Shown here: piece by piece, positions 53,401 to 56,400 of the stretch
Layout: every line of letters starts with the position of its first letter
How positions within the stretch are numbered: position 1 is the stretch's first letter
Source: Rhipicephalus microplus
Lineage: Eukaryota > Arthropoda > Arachnida > Ixodida > Ixodidae
DNA: 64,000 bases
Assembly: GCF_043290135.1 (NCBI RefSeq)
Contig: NC_134705.1
Coordinates: forward strand, 54,901,771-54,965,770
Direction: 5' to 3'
Notes under the pieces: generated by a model
Database searches by the model: none
Seen by the model: only the letters and a program-made list of their open reading frames with translations
What the model was told of the DNA's origin: nothing
Made by a program: the position numbers and the translations under genes

Positions 53401-56400
53401 CCCATAGGCTAATCGGAGGCTCAACTCCGTACTCTCTAGACCCTTAATTAAAGGGGTAATCAGCAGAAATCTCATTTCACTAAAACATTTTTATAAAAAC
53501 AACCACAAACTTGACTGATACACCGCTGAAACCTACATTTAGAACATAACAATCCGGGTGCGGCGATGGCATAGTGGTTAGAGCATCCGCCTCGCATGCA
53601 AGAGGTCCGTGGTTCAAATCCCGGTGCCGCGCAGTTCCCAACCGGAAAAAAAAATCCGCGTGTTGATCGAACTGCATTAAGAGGCCTAAGGTGCGGCCTC
53701 ACTGGTAACCACCGCCGGGAACGCCCTCCCTCACCAGAGAAGGATTGGCCACACTGGTGCAGTATCTGGCCACTACCTCCCACATGCATACGTCAAATAA
53801 CTCACGGCCCTCAGTTCCAACCAGCTGCGAAGCAACTGACCATGGCGGCGGTCAGATCTTCAACGCAGCAGAGGGTGCTAAGAATCTTTGGACTGCAGGC
53901 CGCCCTTGGAACCTGAACTTGGCAACGTTTAACGCTAGAACCTTATCTAGTGAGGGAAGTCTAGCTGTACTATTCGAGGAGCTAGAGGGTGTTAATTGGG
54001 ATATAATAGGGCTATGTGAGGTTAGGAGGAAAGATGAGGCCTATACGGTGCTACATAATGGGCACGTCTTTTGCTATCGGGACTTGCCTGACAGAAGAGA
54101 ACTGGGAGTGGGGTTCCTAATTCACAGAACAAAAGCTGGCAACATAGAGAAATACTATAGCATTATTGAAAGAGTGGTAGGTATTGTAATTAAACTGAAT
54201 AAAAGATACAATATTAAGGTAGTACCGGCTTACGCGCCTACATCCAGCCATGATGACGCCTCAGTTGAAAGCTTCTATGAAGACGTGGAATCGGCAATGA
54301 GTAAGCTAAAAACACAGTTTACAATACTGATGGGCGACTTTAATGCAAATGTAGGGACGAAGCAGGCTGGAGACCAGGCCATAGGAGATTATGGCATCGG
54401 CACTAGAAATACCAGAGGAGAGCTACTAGTACAATTCGCAGAACGCAATAAGTTGCGGATTTGGAATACTCTCTACCGAAAACGAGAAAACCGCAAGTGA
54501 AAATGGAGGAGCCCTGATGGCGAAAATAAGAACGAAATAGACTTTATAATGACTGCACACCCAGGAATCGTGCAGGATGTGGAAATGGTTGGCAAGGTAC
54601 GATGCAGTGACAACAGAATGGTACGGTCTCGAATTCGCCTAGACTTGAAGAAGGAACGACAGAAACTGATACGCAAGAAGCCAATCAATGAGCTATCACT
54701 GAGAGGGAAAGTGCAGAAATTCAGAGTGTCGCAGCAGAACAGGTACTCGGCTCTTAGTGAGGAAACCAACCTTAGCGTAGATACAATGAATGATAATCTA
54801 ACGAGTATCATTACGGAGTGTGCAGTGGAAGTTGGAGGCAGGGTAGTTACACAGGACACTGGCAAGCTTCCCAGGAAACGAAGAACCTAATTAAGAAGCG
54901 TCAAAGCATGAAAGTGTCAAGTACAACAGACAAAATAGAACTGGCAGAGCTTTCAAAATTGATTATTAGGCGTAAAGTATGCGATGTAACAAGGTATAAC
55001 ATGGAGAGAATTGAACACGCTCTGAAAAACAGAGGAAGCGTCAAAGCAGTGAAGAGAAAACTTGGGATAGGCAAAAGTCGGATGTATGCACTAAGGGTGG
55101 ATAGGATAGTTAAAATAGCGGAGGAGTTTTACAGAGATCTGTACAGTAGCTGAGACAACCATGACCTTAATACTATAAGAATTAGCAGTAACCCAGATGA
55201 CACCCCACCAGTAACGATAGAAGAAGTCAGAAAAGCTTTGGAGAGCATGCAAAGAGGCACAGCTGCTGGTGAGGATCAGGTAACATCACATCTGCTGAAA
55301 GATGGAGGACAGATTGTGTTAGAAAAACTAGCCACCCTGTTTACGAGGTGTCTCCTGATGGGAAGGGTACCAGAGTTTCGGAAGAACGCTAAAATCATCT
55401 TAATACATAAGAAAGGAGATGAGAATGACTTGAAGAATTACAGGCCGATCAGCTTGCTCTCTGTAGTATACAAGCTATTTACAAAGGTAATTGCTAACAG
55501 AGTAAAGAAAACATTAGAATTCAATCAACCAAAGGGACAAGCAGGATTTCGAACAGGCTACTCAACAATTGACCACATTCATACTATCAATCAGGTAATA
55601 GAGAAATGCTCAGAGTTAAACCAACCACTATACATAGCCTTCATAGATTACGAGAGGGCGTTTGATTCAGTAGAAATATCAGCCGTGATGCAGACACTGC
55701 GGAATCAGGGCGTAGATGAAGTATATATAAACATTCTGGAAGAAATCTACAGGGGATCAACTGCTACCATAGTGCTTCATAAAGAAAGCAACAGAATACC
55801 AATCACGAAGGGTGTAAGGCAGGGGGACACAATCTCCCCAATGCTATTTACCGCGTGCTTACAGGAGGTTTTCAGAAGCCTAGAATGGGAACAGTTAGGG
55901 ATAAGAGTTAATGGAGAATACCTTAGTAACCTGCGCTTCGCCGATGACATTGCATTGCTGAGTAACTCAGGGGACGAATTGCAACTCATGATTACGGAGT
56001 TAGACAAGGAGAGCAGAAAGGTGGGTCTTAAAATTATTCTGCAGAAAACGAAAGTGATGTGCAAAACCTCGGAAAGGAGCAGCGCTTCGAGATAGGTAAT
56101 AGTGCACTTGAAGTTGTAAAAGACTATGTCTACTTAGGGCAGCTAATAACCGCAGAGCCTAACCACGCGATTGAAGTAACTAGAAGAATAAGAATGGAGT
56201 GGAGTACATTCGGCAAGCACTCTCAAATTAAGAAAAGGTAGATTGCCACTATCCCTCAAGAGGAAGGTATAAACAGCTGTATCTTGCCAGTACGTAGCTA
56301 CGGAGCAGAAACCTGGAGACTTACAAAAAGGGTTCAGCTTAAATTGAGGACGACGCAACGAGCAATCAAAAGAAAAGTGGTAGGTGTAACCTTAAGAGAC

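Follow-up and report, generated by a model that had tools for sequence, protein, structure and literature searches.

The window, a stretch of 64,000 nucleotides of the Rhipicephalus microplus genome, holds two copies of a LINE on opposite strands. Copy A, on the plus strand, has a body (53632..56709) made up of a 5' UTR, an endonuclease, a reverse transcriptase (RT) and a very short 3' UTR that terminates in GAT repeats. The two domains lie in separate open frames, both above Pfam cut-offs: first an AP-type endonuclease (Exo_endo_phos, 53745..54500, plus strand), then an RT (RVT_1, 55238..56095, plus strand; E 4.8e-38), whose best relative is a R. microplus protein with 89% identity over the RT length. 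Insertions of this LINE with target duplications are seen, though not for every copy. Judged by domain order, short repeat-ended 3' UTR and target duplications, the element appears RTE-like in anatomy. Directly upstream of the body is a tRNA-like head (53559..53631, plus strand), preceded by GGG (53556..53558), which is internal here and with which several leaderless copies begin. Copy A reaches further upstream to ~53236 through 323 bp of leader (53236..53558, plus strand), common to other genomic copies at ~95%. It is what truncation has left of an upstream leader that measures ~1.2 kb in a long form of the element, and is 95% identical to positions -323..-1 of the leader of copy L010. Tracts of (TA)n on the 5' side (53098..53233) and the 3' side (56710..56727) flank the longer unit of leader, head and body.

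Copy B (15607..19201, minus strand; head at 19129-19201) is 91-94% similar to copy A and has an insert that copy A is missing (17143..17553, minus strand). According to the initial annotation, both copies start at exactly the same base. This stands for the similarity between them, which ends at the first base of the tRNA-like block, and fails for the insertions: copy A continues into its leader, and copy B has 420 further bases inside its target duplication. The duplication is 11 bp long (GGCTCAGATTT) and is found at 15596-15606, on the 3' side of the LINE, and at 19622-19632, on its 5' side. The 420 bases between head and 5' duplication (19202..19621, minus strand) comprise an ECT2-like, exon-like stretch and intron-like sequence; their far end holds a snap-back hairpin. 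Searching the genome with 19202-19623 we found one other place, with 94% identity over query positions 3-404 (L174; C1:249756500-249757700), and no LINE at the junction there. That place contains a stretch of 26 codons with AG and GT at its borders; its best match is ECT2, a weak hit for a short query (E 0.0056), and Pfam returned no match for it. We read the sequence that follows as an intron. To judge from these sequence matches, copy B appears to contain part of the unspliced transcript of a gene and may be a visible instance of 5' transduction. Its extension would derive either from read-through from a source copy absent from the assembly or from template jumping, in the latter case from the 5' end of the LINE RNA; whichever the route, the junction is the first base of the head. 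Copy B sits inside a tRNA-derived SINE with a different head, and this SINE lies beyond the 420-bp extension. The interrupted SINE is ~235 bp long, begins with CCGCCGCGGTGGTCTAGTGG... and occupies 15481-15606 and 19622-19738; further copies of it are present at 37824-38052 and 58155-58392.

The description of the head as a 72-nt tRNA-like block with A and B boxes and CGC at the anticodon position proved accurate. The Rfam tRNA model (RF00005) matches copy A at exactly 53560-53631, from the mature-like first base onwards, with 29.9 bits (gathering cut-off 29), and CGC occupies the anticodon position in the alignment. The head of another copy, L020, scores 39.2 bits, and the heads of several copies fall below 29. 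The A box (TGGCNNAGTGG) lies at 53567..53577 and the B box (GGTTCAAATCC) at 53611..53621, both on the plus strand. A strict pattern of both boxes occurs three times in the window, in copy A, in copy B and at an unrelated site at 30685, versus 0 in 100 shuffles. ARAGORN made no tRNA call on the copy A block, which as a single strand folds no more stably than shuffled sequences do (z -0.70); we therefore call the block tRNA-like, with the status of a candidate gene only, and it is by likeness that we regard it as a tRNA-derived head. In 23 leaderless copies we found no extra conservation of the boxes: variation is 0.024 in the A box, 0.024 in the B box and 0.027 in the remaining head, and the boxes vary more than the 5' UTR (0.016). 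In the majority head of these 23 copies both boxes are intact and spaced as in tRNA genes. The head is a shared 5' module of an endonuclease- and RT-encoding LINE.

The 5' ends of the family were surveyed in sampled loci, every list of 40 matches holding the top-scoring ones among 762 to 1685 candidates. We took the first 20 of 40 matches to the LINE 5' end, 38 of 40 matches to the endonuclease of copy A (the other two being in the sample already) and 20 of 40 to that of a diverged copy (58 endonuclease-anchored loci), 20 of 40 leader matches and 20 of 40 head matches; for the second endonuclease set, the leader set and the head set, matches already sampled were passed over. Selection of the 58 endonuclease-anchored loci is independent of the 5' end. 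The block had been expected at the 5' end of full-length copies, and this is what we see in 16 of these 58 best-scored loci, where similarity stops within ~5 bases of the first base of the head (15 independent events, L053 and L054 being one), but not in 12, which carry the leader upstream of it. Another five are cut within the head and one has an internal deletion (L057). The remaining 24 lack a head at the expected position or begin at a more downstream point: 16 of them are unsorted, L045 is an interrupted copy with its head further up, and L149 and L155 have an inverted head. Other 5' ends would place 0.58 ends in the pile-up at the head (P about 1e-16), on a background of ~0.07 ends per base that takes all unsorted loci as truncated. 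Copy B, in which similarity ends at the head and the insertion goes on past it, advises caution here, and a target duplication backs only L031 (in (TA)n), L043, L053/L054, L062, L144 and L157 of the 16. We also counted exact words in the whole genome (3.26 Gb): a 26-mer of the head occurs 854 times, GGG plus head 242 times, CCGGG plus head (the long junction) 111 times and a second long-junction word 143 times, with 0 for reversed controls. Thus, 743 of the 854 intact heads lie outside the exact long junction. GGG without the preceding CC is found at 131 of these 743 (18% vs 1.6% by chance, ~eleven times commoner), part of both the 131 and the 743 being long copies with a mutated junction; among the sampled loci, five long copies have kept GGG and lost CC (L015, L106, L109, L119 and L121).

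Target duplications outside the block, which the initial annotation had named as a check, are present in at least 11 leaderless copies (L014, L022, L028, L043, L053, L062, L125, L126, L137, L144 and L157), one of them imperfect (L062, 13/14 bases); L031 has (TA)n on both sides. Between duplication and head we find GGG in L028 and L137 (flush), GGGG in L126, one G in L053, and nothing or one A in L043 and L062. Elsewhere the filler consists of reiterated first bases (L022, L144), a palindrome (L014) or six to eight other bases (L125, L157). No clear duplication was found for the leaderless copies L042, L059, L061, L127, L131, L152 and L156, nor for L136, which has 18 nt of filler at its 5' junction. 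A 3' end was sought and not found in the leaderless L040, L049, L138, L139 and L150, and the duplication check left out the leaderless L128, L140 and L159, whose 3' end is outside the sampled sequence. Inverted 5' pieces terminate at the head in L013 and at GGG plus head in L155. Six 5' junctions (L022, L128, L144, L014, L155 and L156) show reiterated first bases or inverted, snap-back LINE starts, as if the reverse transcriptase had jumped or folded back at the end of the RNA. Such reiterated and snap-back fillers at one and the same place likewise suggest that the RNA ended at the head.

A second cluster of 5' ends lies upstream. The leader extends to about -1205 (full length ~1.2 kb) at 91-94% identity, contains two 386-base units that are ~78% alike, and joins the head directly before GGG. 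Measured against L010, 6 of 14 copies have long 5' ends at -1206..-1199; among the six are L015, with an imperfect duplication (13/15) at that end, and L018, which has TGTAAGCGAG at its flanks and contains an inverted piece with its end at -1205. We considered the leader as a separate element and rejected this: 15 of the 20 leader matches sampled from the 40 best-scored run into head and 5' UTR, and the other five (L101, L105, L107, L111 and L113) each diverge differently. L011 and L016, candidates for short or odd copies, were instead read as leader-bearing with nested insertions. Four very similar long copies (L102, L103, L108 and L112) lie within 20 kb (C11:71.52-71.54 Mb); their UTR match breaks off after ~48 bases, and they may stem from an altered copy that was duplicated locally.

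The presence of the leader follows lineage. In a midpoint-rooted tree of 39 copies resolution is weak, 28 of the 36 branches being open, but the leaderless label clusters, with 7 changes vs a shuffled mean of 12.1 and 3 of 500 shuffles as low. Types were assigned by eye from the sampled loci with the leader-anchored set left out. All 25 copies of the ATT type, defined by a difference just after the head, are without leader (0 with), while the A-run type has 8 without and 37 with it (37/45; Fisher 2e-12 for both types together). In this table L053/L054 and L122/L123 are each counted once; the script's short calls were overridden by hand for L011, L016, L027 (minus strand), L110 and L119, as were its lineage types for L050, L104, L040, L043, L138, L155 and copy B. 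L019 was entered as short though its boundary is indistinct. The 8 include L019 and the inverted L013, and the 25 include copy B and the inverted L149 and L155. We read the pattern as a leaderless form that came first and a leader that came later, the start at the head still being used.

From the anatomy, the clustering of 5' ends at two places, the target duplications and the lineage pattern we infer, with a probability of about 50%, that a captured tRNA-derived head sets the start of the RNA, likely as an internal type-2 promoter, and that one lineage later gained the leader. The LINE's own 5' terminus would be the captured head, and transcripts would start at it or a few bases before it (GGG-T-head, ~11 nt upstream of the A box), which would be the reason why many copies begin there. 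Promoters of the tRNA type start ~11 bases upstream of the A box. This distance, the intact and well-spaced boxes and the mobility of the start together with the element favor an internal promoter in the head. The likeliest cause would be a promoter of type 2 (A/B boxes), like those of pol III, that is carried along with the element; pol II initiating at the same place would be the alternative. Acquisition of the ~1.2 kb upstream leader, with a separate start near -1205, would have followed in one lineage, possibly through 5' transduction, and this lineage would have gone on producing copies that begin at the head. The more specific proposition that pol III transcribes the LINE end to end from the captured tRNA promoter, with one lineage switching to an upstream promoter, we consider rather unlikely.

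Pol II internal promoters are present in many LINEs, and we retain as a strong rival, with a probability well short of even, that the captured tRNA or SINE 5' end marks the RNA start without being used by pol III and that a pol II internal promoter starts at GGG. T4 runs, which may act as pol III terminators, recur in the body at about +901 (7/9 copies), +1596 (9/9) and +2340 (7/9), whereas the body of a pol III element should be free of T-run terminators; T4 is a weak pol III terminator in some animals. We detected no significant depletion of T runs in the LINE body that would be a sign of pol III. The boxes are under no extra constraint, and the variable G run at the 5' end could come from the copying of a cap, which would mean pol II. 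These observations are our reasons for keeping this rival, and the need for translation, a LINE requiring a translatable mRNA, also fits it. The intact A and B boxes with tRNA-gene spacing in the majority head speak against it, as does a start-to-A-box distance like that of tRNA-type promoters.

Other readings concern how the head came to be an end at all. A derivation of the leaderless class from an ancestral long form by leader loss is improbable: the weak support and midpoint root of the tree leave room for it, but no ATT-type copy has a leader, and the join of leader and head directly before GGG is what would be expected if a GGG-starting copy had landed beside the leader. The same lack of any leader to cut from in the ATT type (0/25) counts against a short form produced by cutting of a longer transcript at the head, in the style of RNase P, or by a stop of reverse transcription there. 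A few copies do begin at the mature-like first base, among them L043 with its duplication at that point; several others start 1 to 4 bases upstream, with G's, and an RT arriving from the 3' side would be expected to stall where it first meets the head rather than at the head's first base. We regard this explanation as very unlikely. Chance, either LINE copies landing beside a SINE head or a LINE that targets tRNA-like sites, is hardly credible. Copy B is indeed inside a tRNA-derived SINE, but that SINE has another head and is separated from the LINE by the extension, target duplications lie outside the LINE's head, and all 20 of the sampled head-anchored loci read on into the LINE 5' UTR (L129 for 20 bases only). 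The earlier argument against chance insertion next to a SINE is upheld at the level of the family, where many copies have the head as their 5' terminus; the suggestion of integration at tRNA-like sites finds no sign in these 20 loci, and the insertion sites are diverse, (TA)n and a SINE among them. No independent SINE with the same head was found in 20 of the 40 head matches, picked by likeness to the head of copy A; a SINE sharing it may exist elsewhere in the genome.

LINEs must carry their own promoter, and promoter gain and swap are known mostly from L1. Mouse L1 resembles the tick LINE in leader replacement and in repeated leader units (its 5' UTR monomers) and has no tRNA-derived head; for human L1, likewise with no such head, pol III has been claimed and the polymerase is debated. 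Among RTE LINEs, HaRTE1.1 and HaRTE2.1 of Helicoverpa (1,645 and 994 bp) have TGA-repeat tails and share with the tick LINE an RT domain and a short 3' UTR with terminal repeats, GAT here and TGA there; the sections of the source that deal with them describe no tRNA-like 5' head, and they are probably not full length (PMC3272025). Among tRNA-derived SINEs, whose 5' part resembles a tRNA and has a pol III promoter, are HaSE1, where A and B boxes are combined with target duplications and terminal TGA repeats (PMC3272025), and tick Ruka (PMC3160391). The tick LINE has the tRNA-like 5' head with A/B boxes of a SINE on a 3.15-kb coding LINE body, whereas these SINEs, as presented in the relevant parts of the two papers, are short and non-coding (PMC3272025, PMC3160391). 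The TRE5 and TRE3 non-LTR elements of Dictyostelium are, like it, LINEs linked with pol III genes; in the account given there they insert beside tRNA genes, whereas in the tick LINE the tRNA-like piece is within the element (PMC5911963). In a search of open-access papers we recognized no description of a LINE with a tRNA head, which is not proof of novelty. One family thus displays a tRNA-type head as 5' end, gain of a leader, use of both 5' ends and, in copy B, capture of gene sequence, and it would make the question whether a tRNA-type promoter can serve a coding LINE directly testable. If true, the pol III reading would mean an autonomous element with SINE-type transcription.

Two other tRNA-like features are present in the window. 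The unrelated A-box/B-box pair spans 30685-30737, in a tRNA-like stretch outside the LINE. A tRNA-Thr(CGT) call at 8139-8211 (47 bits) lies within a repeat that is 75% like 52345-52852, and because of this location the call may represent a SINE rather than a gene.
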